The notes beneath the pieces are model-generated. The model was not told the DNA's origin. It saw only the letters and a list, made by a program, of their open reading frames with translations, and ran no database searches. Position numbers and translations under genes: made by a program. A stretch of DNA of 33,331 nt, taken from contig CAKKSP010000020.1 of NCBI GenBank assembly GCA_919902045.1, positions 1 through 33,331 of the forward strand, read 5' to 3'. The DNA comes from Omnitrophica bacterium GWA2_41_15. GTDB lineage: Bacteria > Omnitrophota > Gorgyraeia > Gygaellales > Profunditerraquicolaceae. Positions 5,889 through 32,853 of the stretch are shown here, piece by piece (within the stretch, counting starts at the first letter, position 1; each line of letters opens with the position of its first letter).

Positions 5889-8800
5889 ATGGAAGAAGTT
5901 AGCCTGTTTGATTACGTTTCCATAAAAATTGCTTCTCCGGAAGTGATTCGTTCCTGGTCTAAGGGCGAAATTAAAAAAGCCGAAACAATTAATTATCGTA
6001 CTTTAAAACCAGAGAAGGATGGCCTTTTTTGCGAGAAGATTTTTGGCCCTGTCCGCGACTGGGAATGTCATTGCGGTAAATATAAAGGAATAAAATTTAA
6101 GGGTGTTACCTGCGACCGTTGCGGTGTAGTTATTGACCGCTCTGCGGTGCGGCGTGAACGTATGGGCCACATTGATTTGGCAGCCCCTGTTACCCATATC
6201 TGGTTTTTTAAATCTTCACCCGGTAGATTTTCTGCGCTTCTTGATATGAGTATGCGCGAGATCGAGAAGATAGTATATTATGAAGAATATGTTGTAACCG
6301 ATCCGGGTACAACTGCCTTAAAGATGAAAGAAATGCTTGCTGAAGATAAATATCAGGAAGCAGTGGAAAAATACGGTACAGGCGCATTTAAGGCAAGGAT
6401 TGGAGCTGAAGCTATACAGTATTTGCTTAAAGAGCTTGATCTTGATGCTTACTGTGAAAAACTGCGCAAGGATATGGATAAAACAAAAGATATCCTGAAT
6501 AACCGTAAAATTTTGAAGAACCTTCGTATCGTCGAAGATTATAAAAAATCTGAAAATAAGCCGGAATGGATGATTATGGAAGTGCTTCCGGTAATACCGC
6601 CTGATCTCAGGCCTTTAGTACCTCTTGATGGTGGTAGATTTGCTACATCAGACCTTAATGATTTATACAGGCGTGTAATTAACCGTAATAACCGCCTTAA
6701 AAAACTTATTGAATTAAGCGCTCCGGATATAATTATTCGTAATGAAAAACGTATGCTTCAGGAGGCTGTGGATGCGCTTCTAGATAACGGAAAACATGGC
6801 CGCGCAGTGATGGGCGCCAATAACCGTCCGCTTAAGTCTTTGGCGGATATGCTCAAAGGAAAACAGGGACGTTTTCGTCAGAACCTTTTGGGTAAACGTG
6901 TAGATTATTCCGGCCGTTCAGTTATTGTTGTTGGCCCGCATTTAAAACTTCATGAGTGCGGTTTGCCTAAACAGATGGCGCTTGAATTGTTTGAGCCTTT
7001 TATTATTAAGAGGCTGCGTGAAAAAGGTTTTGTGCATACGATTAAAGGCGCGCGCCGCATGGTTGAGCGGGGCAAGATCGAAGTTTGGGATATTCTTGAT
7101 GAAGTTATCCGTGACCATCCGATTTTACTTAACCGCGCTCCCACACTTCACCGCTTAGGTATCCAGGCATTTCAGCCGACGCTGGTTGAAGGAAAATCTA
7201 TCAAGATCCATCCTTTGGTTTGTACTGCTTTTAACGCTGATTTTGACGGTGACCAGATGGCAGTGCATGTGCCGTTATCACTTGAAGCTCAGATAGAAGC
7301 AAAGCTGCTGATGCTGTCTATTAATAATGTTTTTTCTCCTGCTGACGGAAGGCCGATTCTTTCTCCGACCCAGGATATTATTCTGGGAGTTTCTTATCTT
7401 TCAAAGGAAAAGCCTGATGCCAAAGGCGCAGGAAAACTTTTCGCCAATTGCGACGAAGTTCAGATTGCATATCAAGATGGTGAGCTCGCTTTACATGCTG
7501 TAATACGTTTAAGAATTTATAAGTTGTTTGATGTTGCAGATAAAAAAATTATTGAGGGTAAACAGATTATAAATACCACTGCCGGGCGCGTGATTTTTAA
7601 TCAGACGCTGCCTGCGGAATTTGGTTTTGTCAATTATGAGCTTAAGAAGAGCGTAGTAGGCGAGATTGTCGCTGAATGTTATAAGCGTTTCGGCCATCAG
7701 CGCACTATTGAGCTTCTTGATGAAATCAAAACTCTTGGTTTTGAGTTTGCAACTCTCGGGGGAATATCTATCGGTATAAATGATATGACTATTCCTGCTG
7801 AAAAGGGCGAAGTGCTTAAAGAAGCGCGTATTGAAGTAGCAAAGGTTGAAGATCAATACCGTAAGGGTATTATTACCGATAGAGAGCGTTACAATAAAGT
7901 TATCGACGTCTGGACGCATACCACTGATAAGGTGTCGGACCTGCTTTTTAAAGAGATGGAAAATTTTAATCCGCTTTTTATGATGGTAGATTCCGGTGCA
8001 AGAGGATCCCGGCTTCAGGTGCGTCAGTTGGCTGGTATGCGTGGTTTGATGGCAAAACCATCAGGTGAGATTATCGAAAACCCGATTACCGCTAATTTTC
8101 GCGAGGGTTTAACCGTGCTCGAATATTTTATCTCTACCCATGGTGCGCGTAAGGGATTGGCCGACACTGCGTTAAAAACTGCGGATGCAGGGTATCTTAC
8201 CCGTCGCTTGGTTGATGTCTGCCAGGAAGTAATTATTACTGAAATTGATTGCGGAACTCTAAATGGAATCACGGTTGCTGCTATTATCGAAGGCGATGAA
8301 GTAGTAGTCAGCTTAAAGGATCGTATCTTTGGCCGAGTTGCTTTGGATAATGTGGTAGATATTATTACCGATGAAGTTATAGCTGAACAAGGAAGCATTA
8401 TTAGCGAAGAAAAAGCGGAGATGATCGAGAAACTTGGTATTGAAAAAATCCGTATCCGCAGTGTCTTAACTTGTGAGTCTGAGCGTGGAGTATGCGCCAA
8501 ATGCTATGGAAGAAATCTTGCTACCGGAAGGTCTATTGACTTGGGTGAAGCAGTAGGCGTAATTGCCGCGCAAAGTATTGGTGAGCCTGGAACGCAGTTA
8601 ACCATGAGAACATTCCATATCGGCGGAACTGCATCCAGAATTGTTGCGCAATCTTCCCATAAAGCCAAGAACAAGGGTACTATTAAATACCATAGCTTAA
8701 GGACAGTTGCTAAGAATAAAGATTTTGTAGTTTTAAACCGCAACGGTTCTATTAGTATTAATGATAAACAAGGCAGAGAGCTTGAACGTTATCCTGTTCT

Positions 8801-9932
8801 TCAGGGTGCTTTGATTGCCTTTAAAGAGGACGATGATGTGCAGAAGGGTGATTTCCTTGTGCGTTGGGACCCGTATAACGTTCCAATTCTTACCGAAGTC
8901 AGCGGAAAAGTAAAATTTGAAGATTTAAAGGAAGATATAACTTTCCGTCAGGAGCTTAATCCTGTCACTAAGCTTACCGAGCGTGTAGTCGTAGAACATA
9001 AACAGGAATTTCACCCTCAGATTATTATTGTCAATGAAAAAGATGAAGAGATGGGGATTTATCCCATTCCTATCGGAGCTCATATTTTGATTAAAGACGG
9101 CCAGCAGATCAGTGCAGGAGATCTTGCTGCTAAGATTCCTCGATTAGTCGTGAAAACAAGAGATATTACCGGCGGTCTTCCGCGCGTAGCTGAGCTTTTT
9201 GAAGCACGCCGTCCGAAGGATCCGGCAGTAATCAGCGAAATTGACGGTTTTGTGGAATTCGGCCATTCTAAAAAAGGCCAGAGGTTGATTATTGTTAAAT
9301 CTTCCACCGGCATGGCAAGGGAATATGTTATCCCGCACGGAAAACATCCCAATGTTTATAAAGGCGACCGCGTAGAAGCAGGCCAGCAGTTGACTGACGG
9401 GCCGGTTGTTTTACAGGATATTTTAAGGGTTTGTGGTGATAAGGTATTGCAGGAGTATTTAGTAAATGAGGTTCAGGAAGTTTACCGCTTACAAGGTGTG
9501 CGTATCAATGATAAGCATATTGAGGTTGTTATCCGTCAGATGCTTAAAAAGATACGCGTAGAGGAATCCGGAGATACGGAGTTCTTGCCAGGACAACAGG
9601 TAGATAAATGGGTTTTCCGCAAAGAGAATATACGCGTAACCTCAAAAAATAAGAAACCCGCATCAGCTGTTCCGCTCTTGTTAGGTATAACCAAGGCTTC
9701 TTTAAGCACTGAAAGTTTTATTTCCGCGGCAAGTTTTCAGGAGACCACCCGCGTACTTACTGATGCTGCGACTTCCGGAAAACATGATGAACTTTTTGGT
9801 TTAAAAGAAAACGTCATCGTCGGCCGATTGATACCGGCTGGCAGCGGATTTGATGCGCACCGAAAAGTTGAAATAGAAAAATTAGCACAGGAAAAACGAA
9901 AAGAGATGCAAGAGGCAGCAGTAGCCCAGTGA
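5889..9932 (+). CDS. rpoC: DNA-directed RNA polymerase subunit beta'
   Basis: This is a full-length beta' of 1347 residues without the large inserts of some phyla. The N-terminal zinc ribbon has C60, C62, C75 and C78. The catalytic loop [12 protein letters not shown] lies at 449-460 and supplies the three aspartates that bind the active-site magnesium. The second cysteine cluster ([15 protein letters not shown]) sits about two-thirds along, followed by [19 protein letters not shown] of the trigger loop region. rpoB ends one base upstream. The stop codon is followed by the first palindromic element of the window. Confidence 0.98.
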
Positions 9933-9938
9933 TAATAC

Positions 9939-9972
9939 CGACCTACGCGGTCGTTTTCGACCGCGTAGGTCG
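9939..9972. repeat. Palindromic element, copy 1 (rpoC-rpsL spacer)
   Basis: CGACCTACGCGGTCG (9939-9953), a TTTT loop and CGACCGCGTAGGTCG (9958-9972) form a perfect 15-bp stem. Each arm is itself an inverted repeat, CGACC and GGTCG around TACGC or GCGTA, so the site could fold as one long hairpin or two short ones. It starts six bases after the rpoC stop and leaves the rpsL ribosome binding site intact. No T-run follows, so it is a poor intrinsic terminator. Three related copies occur at 17274, 20752 and 32817. Confidence 0.9.
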
Positions 9973-9994: not shown

Positions 9995-10393
9995 ATGCCC
10001 ACGATTGAGCAATTAATAAGATTAGGAAGAAGTTCAAAAACTAAAAAATCTAAATCACCGGCACTTAAGGCTTGCCCTCAAAGAAGAGGCGTTTGCCTTC
10101 AGGTGCGCACGATGACGCCAAAAAAGCCTAACTCTGCGCTTCGTAAGATTGCAAGAGTCCGGCTTACAACAGGTATCGAAGTAACTTCTTATATACCTGG
10201 TGAGGGGCATAACCTTCAGGAACATTCGATCGTGTTAGTACGCGGAGGCCGCGTAAAAGATCTTCCCGGCGTGCGTTATCATATTGTACGCGGGACATTA
10301 GATACATCTGGCGTTACTTCAAGAAAACGTTCTCGTTCAAAATATGGAGCAAAACGGCCTAAAGAACAAGCAGCTGGAAAAGCCGCTAAGTAA
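9995..10393 (+). CDS. rpsL: 30S ribosomal protein S12
   Basis: The 132-residue protein starts at the ATG with the canonical MPTIEQLIR. An in-frame ATG at 9929 would overlap the rpoC stop and read through the palindromic element, so it is rejected. The decoding-centre loop [11 protein letters not shown] is at 41-51 and includes the lysines altered in streptomycin resistance elsewhere. [13 protein letters not shown] at 84-96 carries the aspartate that is methylthiolated in some bacteria. The tail is lysine/alanine rich. An AAAGGAAAG ribosome binding site lies just after the upstream hairpin. Confidence 0.98.
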
Positions 10394-16973: not shown

Positions 16974-17261
16974 ATGCCAAGATCATTAAAAAAAGGCCCG
17001 TACATCGATGAAAGGTTGCTTGAAAAAGTTGAGAAGATGCGTGTTGCAGGAAATCGCCAAGCAATTAAAACCTGGTCAAGAAGGTCCACTATTGCTCCGG
17101 AATTCGTTGGTTTGACTTTTGCAGTTCATGACGGCCATAAACACGTCCCGGTGTTTGTAACCGAAAATATGGTAGGCCATAAGCTGGGAGAATTTGCTCC
17201 TTCGCGGATCTTTAGAAAACACGGCGGTGTGAAAGCGAAAAAGGCCGCAGAAAAGACTTAA
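16974..17261 (+). CDS. rpsS: 30S ribosomal protein S19
   Basis: The 95 residues match S19: [19 protein letters not shown] at the start, [21 protein letters not shown] centrally, then [21 protein letters not shown]19 pairs with S13 at the head of the small subunit. Unusually for this tightly packed block, a 65-nt spacer with a palindromic element follows before rplV. Confidence 0.98.
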
Positions 17262-17273
17262 TAAATAACCTTA

Positions 17274-17309
17274 CGACCTACGCGGTCGTATTTTCGACCG
17301 CGTAGGTCG
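17274..17309. repeat. Palindromic element, copy 2 (rpsS-rplV spacer)
   Basis: The arms CGACCTACGCGGTCG (17274-17288) and CGACCGCGTAGGTCG (17295-17309) are identical to those of copy 1 and form a perfect 15-bp stem. Only the loop differs (TATTTT). It lies inside the S10 block, where the genes around it are separated by only 3 to 20 nt, and directly before the rplV ribosome binding site GGAAGG. No T-run follows. Confidence 0.9.
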
Positions 17310-17326: not shown

Positions 17327-17662
17327 ATGTTAGCAAAAGCTGAATGTAAATATTTAAGGATTACTCCGACAAAGGTAAGGTTGGTGCTTGATCTTATCCG
17401 CAACAAAGACGTTATAGAGGCAAGGAATATTTTAGTTGCGATTAATAAGCGTTCAAAAGAATTTTTATTAAAGATTTTGAACTCTGCGATAGCTAATGCC
17501 AAAGTAAAAGGGTTTCAGCCGGAACAGCTTTATGTTTCGCGTGCTATTTGTGATCAAGGGACGGCTTGGAAGAGATTTAAGGCAGGGCCTTTTGGGCGGG
17601 CATTACCTATTCGTAAACGCACCTCGCATATAAAGATCGAGTTAGATTTAAAAAATAATTAG
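17327..17662 (+). CDS. rplV: 50S ribosomal protein L22
   Basis: The 111-residue protein shows the L22 fold. KYLRITPTKVRLVLDLIRNK forms the first helix region, LLKILNSAIANAK lies centrally, and the basic beta-hairpin near the C-terminus (GRALPIRKRTSHIKIEL) reaches into the exit tunnel and is the usual place of macrolide-resistance changes. The start has a GGAAGG site placed just after the palindromic element, so a hairpin there would end about 17 nt before the ATG. Confidence 0.97.
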   Translation: MLAKAECKYLRITPTKVRLVLDLIRNKDVIEARNILVAINKRSKEFLLKILNSAIANAKVKGFQPEQLYVSRAICDQGTAWKRFKAGPFGRALPIRKRTSHIKIELDLKNN

Positions 17663-20555: not shown

Positions 20556-20741
20556 ATGGCAAAAAATTCGCAATTAGCACGCTGGAAAAGGCCGGCAAAA
20601 TTTTCTACTCAAAAATATAACCGTTGCCATATTTGCGGGCGCGCAAACGGATATCTGCGCAGGTTTCAGTTATGCCGCTTATGTTTCCGTGAATTAGCCT
20701 GGCAAGGCATGATTCCGGGCGTAAAGAAGGCTAGTTGGTAA
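20556..20741 (+). CDS. rpsZ: 30S ribosomal protein S14, short zinc-binding type
   Basis: This 61-residue S14 belongs to the short, zinc-containing class. C24, C27, C40 and C43 form the ribbon, and the C-terminus [11 protein letters not shown] is universal. The long zinc-free form of about 100 residues is not present here. It lies between rplE and rpsH as usual. An 84-nt spacer with a variant palindromic element follows. Confidence 0.98.
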
Positions 20742-20751
20742 TAAGTAGACA

Positions 20752-20808
20752 CCTTTCAACCTACGCGGTTGAAAGGCAAACAAACGAATGTAAACCGCGT
20801 AGGTTGAA
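20752..20808. repeat. Palindromic element, variant copy 3 (rpsZ-rpsH spacer)
   Basis: TTCAACCTACGCGGTT (20755-20770) pairs perfectly with AACCGCGTAGGTTGAA (20793-20808), giving 16 bp around a 22-nt loop. The left half alone also folds: CCTTTCAACC (20752-20761) and GGTTGAAAGG (20767-20776) make a perfect 10-bp stem with a TACGC loop. The two folds exclude each other. Relative to copies 1 and 2, two G-C pairs of the long stem are A-T pairs here, with both partners changed. The core CCTACGCGG/CCGCGTAGG is retained. Confidence 0.85.
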
Positions 20809-20825: not shown

Positions 20826-21224
20826 ATGTCCAGAACAGATTTAATTGCCGATGCATTTACCATGGTGCGTAACGCAGTAATGGCAAAAAAACCAAATTTA
20901 GATATTCCTGCATCTAAGACCGTGAAATCGGTATTAGAAATTTTTAAACGCGAAGGCTATATTGATAATTTTAAAGCGCTTGAGGATTCAAGCCGCGGAG
21001 AAATTCGTGTTTACCTGAAATATTATTCTTCGGGTAAGTCCGCAATTAGAGAAATCATTCGTGTTTCAAAGCCCGGCCTGCGGAAGTACGTCGGAAAAGA
21101 AAAAATTCCACATGTTTTACGCGGCAAGGGGGTTGCGATAGTTACTACCTCTAAAGGTATAATTACGGGGGAAGAGGCGCGCAGCCTTGGAGTGGGCGGA
21201 GAAGTAATCGGGTATATTTGGTAA
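20826..21224 (+). CDS. rpsH: 30S ribosomal protein S8
   Basis: The 132-residue protein has the S8 N-terminal domain (DLIADAFTMVRNAVMAKKPN, then PASKTVKSVLEIFKREGYI). The C-terminal signature is GKGVAIVTTSKGIITGEEAR, followed by GGEVIGYIW. S8 binds helix 21 of 16S rRNA and in E. coli represses the spc operon. No copy of that rRNA-like target was recognised nearby. Both flanking spacers, 84 and 126 nt, are unusually long for this block. Confidence 0.97.
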   Translation: MSRTDLIADAFTMVRNAVMAKKPNLDIPASKTVKSVLEIFKREGYIDNFKALEDSSRGEIRVYLKYYSSGKSAIREIIRVSKPGLRKYVGKEKIPHVLRGKGVAIVTTSKGIITGEEARSLGVGGEVIGYIW

Positions 21225-31766: not shown

Positions 31767-32813
31767 ATGGAAATAAAAGATTTGTTAGTGATGTGTATCG
31801 AGAAGCAAGCCTCTGACCTGCATTTAACGGAAAGAGAGCCTCCGATTTTGCGTATTGACGGAAAATTACAACGCCTCAACTATCCTCCGTTATCCCGAGA
31901 TGACCTAAAAAAAACAATTTATAGTATTTTGACAAATTTTCAAAAAGAAATGTTTGAGCGTGACCTGGAGCTTGATTTTTCACTTGCCCTTCAGGGGCTT
32001 GATCGATTTCGGGTTAATGTCCACATGCAGAAGGGTGTAGTAGAAGCAGCGTTTAGGCGTGTGCCTTTAGAGATTCCGAGTATTGATCAGCTTGGCCTTC
32101 CCCAGGTAGCATATGACCTGGCACGTAAATCAAACGGTTTAGTTTTAGTTACCGGGCCAACGGGTGTTGGTAAGACCACTACACTTGCGGCTATGATTGA
32201 GCTGATTAACAATGAAAGGGAAAACCTGATCCTTTGTATTGAAGATCCGATTGAATTTGTGCATTACAATAAAAAATCAGTAATAAAACAAAGAGAAGTT
32301 TATTCAGACACCCATTCTTTTGCAGAATCTTTACGCCATGCGCTTAGGCAGGATCCTAATGTTATAGTAGTAGGTGAGATGCGCGATTTGGAGACTATAT
32401 CTACTACACTTACTGCCGCTGAAACCGGCCATTTAGTTTTAGCGACACTCCACACTCCTGATGCTCCTCAAACTATAGAGCGTATTATTGACGTATTTCC
32501 TTCGCATCAGCAGCAGCAGGTTAAATTGCAGTTAGCAGACTGTTTGCAGGGTGTAATTTCACAGCTCTTACTTCCGCATGCTTCAGGAAAAGGAAGAGTG
32601 CTTGTTACAGAAGTAATGGTGGCTACTGCTGGTATTCGTAATTTAATCAGAGAGCAGGAGATTGAACAGATTCCTACGCTTATGCAGACCGGAAGTCAAT
32701 ATGGGATGAAGACCATGGATAAGCATTTAAAAGAACTTTTTCAGCGCGGGATTATTACTTTAGATGCAGCAATGACCAAAGTTAAGAATATAGAGGAATT
32801 TAAACACCTATAA
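31767..32813 (+). CDS. pilT: PilT-type twitching motility / pilus retraction ATPase
   Basis: The 348-residue protein is a complete hexameric secretion ATPase of the PilT branch. An N-terminal PAS-like domain (SDLHLTEREPPILRIDGKL) precedes the Walker A GPTGVGKTT at 130-138. The Asp box follows (EDPIEFVH), then the Walker B region VIVVGEMRD with E204, and the His box (TGHLVLATLHT). The PilT-specific AGIRNLIRE is at 289-296. It powers type IV pilus disassembly at the inner membrane. AGGGAGG gives a strong ribosome binding site. It lies between the two dehydratase subunit genes, which is unusual. Confidence 0.93.
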   Translation: MEIKDLLVMCIEKQASDLHLTEREPPILRIDGKLQRLNYPPLSRDDLKKTIYSILTNFQKEMFERDLELDFSLALQGLDRFRVNVHMQKGVVEAAFRRVPLEIPSIDQLGLPQVAYDLARKSNGLVLVTGPTGVGKTTTLAAMIELINNERENLILCIEDPIEFVHYNKKSVIKQREVYSDTHSFAESLRHALRQDPNVIVVGEMRDLETISTTLTAAETGHLVLATLHTPDAPQTIERIIDVFPSHQQQQVKLQLADCLQGVISQLLLPHASGKGRVLVTEVMVATAGIRNLIREQEIEQIPTLMQTGSQYGMKTMDKHLKELFQRGIITLDAAMTKVKNIEEFKHL

Positions 32814-32816
32814 AAC

Positions 32817-32853
32817 CGACCTACGCGGTCAAAAATTTCGACCGCGTAGGTCG
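32817..32853. repeat. Palindromic element, copy 4 (pilT-leuD spacer)
   Basis: CGACCTACGCGGTC (32817-32830) pairs with GACCGCGTAGGTCG (32840-32853) in a perfect 14-bp stem around AAAAATTTC. It begins four bases after the pilT stop and ends 14 bases before the leuD ATG. This copy lies outside the ribosomal protein cluster, so the element is not tied to ribosomal genes. Its right arm is identical to those of copies 1 and 2; the left arm has lost the last G. Confidence 0.9.

Follow-up and report, generated by a model that had tools for sequence, protein, structure and literature searches.

Palindromes between genes of an Omnitrophota genome are very probably REP/REPIN-type elements linked to a hairpin-flanked Y1 transposase lineage

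Palindromic doublets in gene spacers of an Omnitrophota genome

The window, i.e. the whole stretch of 33,331 nucleotides analysed here (positions 1-33331 of contig C20), is part of the Omnitrophota MAG G000, which comprises 1,144,951 bases (1.145 Mb) on 51 contigs and is 82% complete. Four palindromes were found in it, all of them at the places listed in a first-pass annotation of this DNA (Table 1), and at all four spacers the palindrome lies between a stop codon and the next start, as had been claimed. A ribosomal gene cluster had been named as their setting, which applies to three of the four copies, located at ribosomal-protein genes, but not to copy 4, which is found elsewhere. Perfect arms of 14-16 bp, ascribed to all copies, were confirmed for copies 1 and 2 (15 bp each) and copy 3 (16 bp), while copy 4 has arms of 18 nt with 94% complementarity. 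Among the inverted repeats of the window whose arms lie close together, none is longer than the four copies except for one overlapping imperfect palindrome of 21 nt (76% complementarity). An Rfam search of the window at gathering score matched no described RNA.

Table 1. Palindromic elements of the window and their neighbouring genes.
Feature	Positions	Strand	Description
rpoC	5889..9932	+	5' of copy 1; Pfam RNA_pol_Rpb1 domains
Copy 1	9939..9972	.	+- doublet, REPIN-like, rpoC/rpsL spacer
Copy 1 half-site palindromes	9939-9953, 9958-9972	.	loop TACGC (first), loop GCGTA (second)
rpsL (S12)	9995..10393	+	3' of copy 1; Pfam Ribosom_S12_S23
rpsS (S19)	16974..17261	+	5' of copy 2; Pfam
Copy 2	17274..17309	.	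+- doublet, rpsS/rplV spacer; half-sites 17274-17288 and 17295-17309
rplV (L22)	17327..17662	+	3' of copy 2; homologues in relatives
rpsN (S14)	20556..20741	+	5' of copy 3; Pfam
Copy 3	20752..20808	.	long-spacer +- doublet, 24-nt interior, rpsN/rpsH spacer
rpsH (S8)	20826..21224	+	3' of copy 3; Pfam
Type II/IV secretion ATPase-like gene	31767..32813	+	5' of copy 4; Pfam T2SSE
Copy 4	32817..32853	.	+- doublet, spacer between T2SSE-type ATPase gene and aconitase-C (LeuD-like) gene

Copy number and types

Counts for G000 were obtained from pattern searches and from the sequence stretches around the matches. The half-site ACCTACGCGGT occurs 75 times in exact form, compared to about 0.5 occurrences expected (calculated for an 11-mer, 1.145 Mb and both strands). 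The arms are indeed nested inverted repeats, and the family, as the proposed whole-genome search revealed, is not confined to the four copies. When up to one mismatch was allowed, 85 matches were obtained versus 17 for the reversed control pattern, and exact palindromes of the form CCTACGCGG(0-30)CCGCGTAGG were found 27 times, with none for the reversed control. The half-sites are arranged in 34 doublets, 27 of which have TACGC followed by GCGTA (+-) and seven the reverse order (-+); a further two doublets carry a mutation in one half, and five half-sites stand alone, of which one, inside a coding frame, is probably a chance match. The half-site at L166, located mid-way in a coding frame of 314 aa, is probably a coding match by chance. 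Nearly all copies lie in spacers, and both inverted doublets and singlets occur, as is characteristic of the extragenic repeats called REPs and REPINs. The "hundreds" of copies extrapolated from the window were an overestimate: the whole assembly holds about 40 elements, approximately one per 28 kb versus one per 8 kb in the window.

Hairpin anatomy and covariation

The unit of the family is a hairpin composed of a stem, ACC, a 5-nt loop (TACGC, or GCGTA on the opposite strand), GGT and the second strand of the stem; in copy 3, for example, the left half forms a hairpin with a 10-bp stem and a TACGC loop. A doublet consists of two inverted units with a spacer of most often 6-25 nt. Most stems in G000 read TTCG/CGAA or TTCA/TGAA, and the doublet interior usually has 10 nt (24 nt in four copies). 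Across genomes, the core and the 5-nt loop hardly vary, whereas the stem sequences change from one genome to another in a covarying manner. In the sister subtypes, core position 8 is A or G, alike in both halves. The letter at this position is equal in both halves of 152 out of 152 pairs (134 C, 12 A and 6 G), and in a scan for the A and G subtypes of 37 out of 38.

Single-hairpin and twin-hairpin folds had both been considered possible. Both can be formed, but predicted RNA energies give the long single hairpin a much higher stability (-27 to -32 kcal/mol versus -16 to -20 for the twin fold; the minimum free energy of the single hairpin of copy 1 is -31.9). In 46 diverse copies, 92.1% of the cells are paired in the long hairpin, with a covariation score of 0.265 (shuffled 0.084), and 83.3% in the twin fold, with a score of 0.267 (shuffled 0.110). 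Because of these pairing and covariation scores, both folds have left a trace in the sequences, the long fold being the better kept. The 11 core pairs are invariant in this set because it was collected by the core sequence, and are therefore uninformative on their own.

No unpaired GTAG (or GTGG) is present directly 5' of the stem-loop according to the predicted folds, and no CGTC, TGTC or CCTC end tag is conserved in the copy alignment A1. In doublets, GTAG lies within a paired arm of the predicted fold, and in singlets it straddles the loop and the stem. Its letters are invariant in TACGC, TACGA and TACGG cores, and a guide role for this core-internal GTAG is conceivable.

Evidence for copying within genomes

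Orthologous spacers were sought with rplV as query, which matched in 36 of 40 genomes including G000; the homologues in the relatives share 54-76% identity (best match per genome). The rpsS-rplV spacer has 65 nt in G000 versus mostly -1 to 26 nt in relatives, and the rpsN-rpsH spacer 84 nt versus mostly 1 to 49 nt. The element is absent from the former spacer in 20 relatives and from the latter in all relatives readable there. Other, unrelated palindromic or repetitive sequences of 97-229 nt are found in the rpsS-rplV or rpsN-rpsH spacers of several relatives (L228, L229, L232 and L235). Core flanks are more alike within genomes (0.72) than with shuffled labels (0.52, maximum 0.60). No recurrent gene families that might represent a mobiliser or a regulon were found among the neighbours, which are assorted housekeeping genes. 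Since the orthologous spacers are empty, the copies resemble each other within genomes and the neighbours are assorted, the pattern fits copying within genomes rather than conserved regulatory sites. Neither excision nor insertion nor target duplication was observed in the genomes compared (assemblies or MAGs).

Placement after stop codons

The copies are mainly located in short co-directional spacers, usually 4-14 nt past the upstream stop codon. Based on greedy ORF calls, which are heuristic and not curated, the core lies no more than 14 nt from the upstream stop in 85% of the co-directional G000 copies with non-negative distance, while simulation yielded 17% (length-weighted) or 41% (equal per spacer). 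Stop-proximal placement is similar in other genomes, the small A/G set not being significant under the milder null. On the side of the downstream gene, copies often have CGARGNAGGTAA a few nucleotides 5' of the start codon, a sequence that resembles a ribosome-binding site. In three copies, the upstream gene is terminated by the TAG of the core or by a stop just inside the element. At L150 in G000, the C-terminal residues and the stop codon of a gene are supplied by the element, which is missing from the homologues of this gene; for one stop-supplying copy the homologues align up to the element and continue with short unrelated tails. One homologue of the L150 gene (L297 in G017, tail GAGLKPAPT) ends in CDVGAGLKPAPTVA; this resembles a further C-terminus derived from a repeat at that same position.

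With predicted RNA hairpins of very high stability and 85% of the co-directional G000 copies within 14 nt of a stop compared to 17-41% expected, the copies might be taken for functional RNA elements in operons, either RNase III/E processing sites or mRNA-stabilising stem-loops past stop codons, with a REP ancestry that is historical at most; the + strand also has no U-run 3' of the main stem, which makes read-through plausible. However, stop-proximal location and a repeat-supplied TAG have already been published for REP families (PMC3733652), the positions are not common to relatives, the assorted housekeeping neighbours include no recurrent families, and a generic hairpin does not need a loop and core fixed in sequence. 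A functional RNA is therefore an improbable explanation.

Distribution across Omnitrophota

A scan of named genomes for the exact core yielded 85 stretches, nearly all from Omnitrophota, a large share of which is supplied by LacPavin WC90_MAG_41_16 (at least 47 among those listed). The exact doublet was found in 13 of 384 Omnitrophota genomes, which belong to many families, while most sister genera are without it; with a covariance model, related elements were detected in 43 of the 384 genomes. The A and G subtypes of core position 8 were detected in 14 genomes, and in some of these they coexist with the C type. No viral contig contained the core pattern. Matches in Verrucomicrobiota and Akkermansiaceae (L082, L117 and L126) and in Kerfeldbacteria (L097) have differing flanks, are probably unrelated and were discarded.

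In LacPavin WC90_MAG_41_16 (L048-L128), many copies are located within a longer inverted-repeat element with the ends AGGGGACGGTTCTATTTTT...AAAAATAGAACCGTCCCC (e.g. L105 around 2691-2726). This seems to be a separate repeat which spread with the REP inside. The doublets of LacPavin WC70L_MAG_38_7 (G321) have an interior of 1 nt, and a +,+,- triplet of half-sites in 12-bp steps is found in the same genome (L065, 118-152).

A Y1 transposase lineage flanked by the hairpin

Y1 genes were found in 14 of 14 carriers tested, but also in 23 of 30 relatives. Since most relatives also have Y1 genes, the presence of such a gene is uninformative by itself, and most Y1 genes of the relatives are without the element. 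An early result of no Y1 linkage, derived from the Y1 genes of G000, was overturned by scanning the Y1 loci of carriers. Two loci were flanked by exact half-sites, L200 of Omnitrophota STD1_50 and L199 of Elusimicrobia AS27yjCOA_32, and their flanking hairpins have the exact TACGC/GCGTA core. The two proteins share 44% identity over the full length (184 bits), while the other Y1 proteins from the carrier loci examined reach at most 90 bits.

A search with a profile of both proteins delimited a lineage that is clearly set apart and present in 78 of 384 genomes, so that the look-up of a TnpA-REP (Y1 HUH) gene suggested in the first-pass annotation led to hairpin-flanked genes in Omnitrophota and one Elusimicrobia genome. 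The proteins match Pfam Y1_Tnp and, below cut-off, NCBIfam REP_Tyr_transpos, and the lineage profile matches the solved TnpA-REP structure PDB 4ER8 with an E-value of 9e-7. Regular expressions applied to 35 lineage proteins identified HxH and YxxxNP in all of them, WE/WQ in 34 and Y[LIV]HLNP in 29. The motifs are mostly THxH, WE/WQ and Y[LIV]HLNP and thus include the Y1 motif of class 2, the class of TnpA-REP, which has the Y...NP signature (PMC6006769).

Hairpins of the type ACC-N5-GGT (stem of at least 6 bp, up to 300 nt from the gene) were present at 21 of 32 lineage Y1 genes and at none of 24 other Y1 genes, the background in distal DNA being one per 57 kb. Eleven of the 32 lineage genes have such a hairpin on both sides, ten of them with the same loop on both. 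The flanking loops include TACGC, TACGA, TGCGA, CCGGG and GCGGG. In LacPavin WC90_MAG_41_16 (G402), the carrier genome richest in copies (about 47), a lineage gene (L343) is preceded by a doublet with the GTAG/CTAC stem of this genome. Tested on the tree of the transposases, loop letter and enzyme showed no coevolution, and for this reason the loop specificity may be loose or fast-changing. Two close lineage transposases, at L316 (1435-) and L319 (1420-, 2143-), are located beside very long perfect palindromes, which are doublets of the same plan with the loops TGCCA/TGGCA and TCGGA/TCCGA.

The lineage gene was detected in 23 of 43 element carriers versus 55 of 341 non-carriers (Fisher p 2e-7, with related genomes not being independent); in the remaining 20 of the 43 carrier genomes no lineage gene was found. 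The G000 assembly (82% complete) also contains no lineage transposase, but seven Y1 genes of other lineages (best 1.9e-27), which are not clearly flanked by the element hairpin and mostly have other repeats at their sides. A Y1 gene flanked by the same repeat, the arrangement known as REPtron, was accordingly found in other genomes (L199, L200 and L343) and not in the G000 assembly.

These data bear on two further explanations. The half-site might be a quasi-palindromic operator and the copies double-stranded binding sites of a nucleoid, partition or regulatory protein, as the nearly invariant 11-bp core and the occurrence of half-sites in both orders, as singlets and in the +,+,- triplet would allow, but base-pair covariation is seen in the stems beyond the core, the hairpins specifically flank the Y1 genes of one lineage, and presence is patchy between sister genera, which makes binding sites very unlikely. 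Least probable of all are ends or relics of DDE-type MITEs or of another non-Y1 mobile element with the Y1 association as a passenger insertion: many copies of LacPavin WC90_MAG_41_16 are nested in a longer inverted-repeat element whose ends are GGGGACGG, but many divergent lineage genes have hairpins with matching loops on either side, none of the other Y1 genes has them, and no transposase recurs among the neighbours.

Probable REP/REPIN elements of a RAYT branch

The palindromes are very probably miniature non-autonomous mobile elements of the REP/REPIN type, passengers of the hairpin-flanked Y1 (HUH) transposase lineage; of the REP- or MITE-like mobile element proposed earlier, the REP-like side has thus been retained. 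This reading is based on sequence, namely on copies, structure, covariation, lineage-specific presence, homogeneity within genomes and linkage to the transposase. We infer that the hairpin is recognised and moved by the lineage enzyme, and that this enzyme was present in G000 in the past or is encoded in an unassembled part of the genome. With the characterised TnpA-REP enzymes as a model for hairpin binding and movement (PMC8266576), the transposase would most likely bind the hairpin in single-stranded DNA and move the doublet, folded as one long hairpin or two small ones, copying it to new sites. Recognition would proceed via the closing ACC/GGT pairs and the loop, which are natural candidates for the recognised part because the stems vary freely. 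Insertions would survive just past a stop codon and 5' of the downstream gene's ribosome-binding site, owing to their low cost there.

Like REPINs and REP doublets with RAYTs (PMC3116915, PMC3733652), the elements are short hairpin units, mostly in inverted doublets, extragenic and stop-proximal; they sometimes supply the stop codon, are homogeneous within a genome and flank a Y1 tyrosine transposase gene. Unlike these, the Omnitrophota element has neither an unpaired 5' GTAG nor a CGTC tag at the foot of the stem, its conserved part is the loop with the closing ACC/GGT while the stems are free to vary, the copy number is modest (about 40), and assembled G000 is without the lineage transposase. 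REP-like repeats in a genome without an adjacent transposase, as in G000, are also known from CGTC-tagged REPs (PMC3733652), which differ from the elements described here by their tag, while a dedicated transposase lineage exists in genomes related to G000.

Untagged atypical hairpins beside TnpA-REP genes have a precedent in Bacteroidetes (subclass 2.6) and class 3 (PMC6006769), which share the Y...NP signature and non-canonical flanking hairpins with the present lineage; copies of the flanking hairpin also occur elsewhere in the genome in subclass 2.6. The lineage differs from these subclasses by the host phyla (Omnitrophota/Elusimicrobia) and by its motifs, mostly THxH and Y[LIV]HLNP, where the published motif entries compared have NHxH/DHxH.

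An undescribed RAYT branch without an unpaired 5' GTAG or CGTC tag is the best reading of these features, and a search of open-access literature yielded no previous account of such elements from Omnitrophota. The more specific claim has about an even chance of being correct, namely that this REP branch is read by the loop and ACC/GGT instead of a 5' GTAG, that both loops of a doublet change together, and that the enzymes form an undescribed TnpA-REP subclass (THxH...Y[LIV]HLNP) extending from Omnitrophota to Elusimicrobia. The transposase-repeat pair would belong to a phylum of which hardly any members are in culture and would account for palindromes between genes of compact Omnitrophota operons, which should not be read as terminators or regulatory RNAs. 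With the usual GTAG guide missing at the stem foot, it raises the question of how a Y1 HUH enzyme recognises its substrate and chooses the cleavage site without a tag.

Two minor observations concern further Y1/repeat arrangements. In the Elusimicrobia genome, a second pair of the flanking hairpins (L199, 2333-2417) has about 74 nt and no gene between the units and is possibly a gene-less derivative. The G000 Y1 loci L208 and L209 (C32) and L207 (C50) have flanking inverted repeats of the AGGGACACTTTTC... and GTGCCAGGCA types, which suggests that this small genome houses several Y1/repeat pairs independent of each other.
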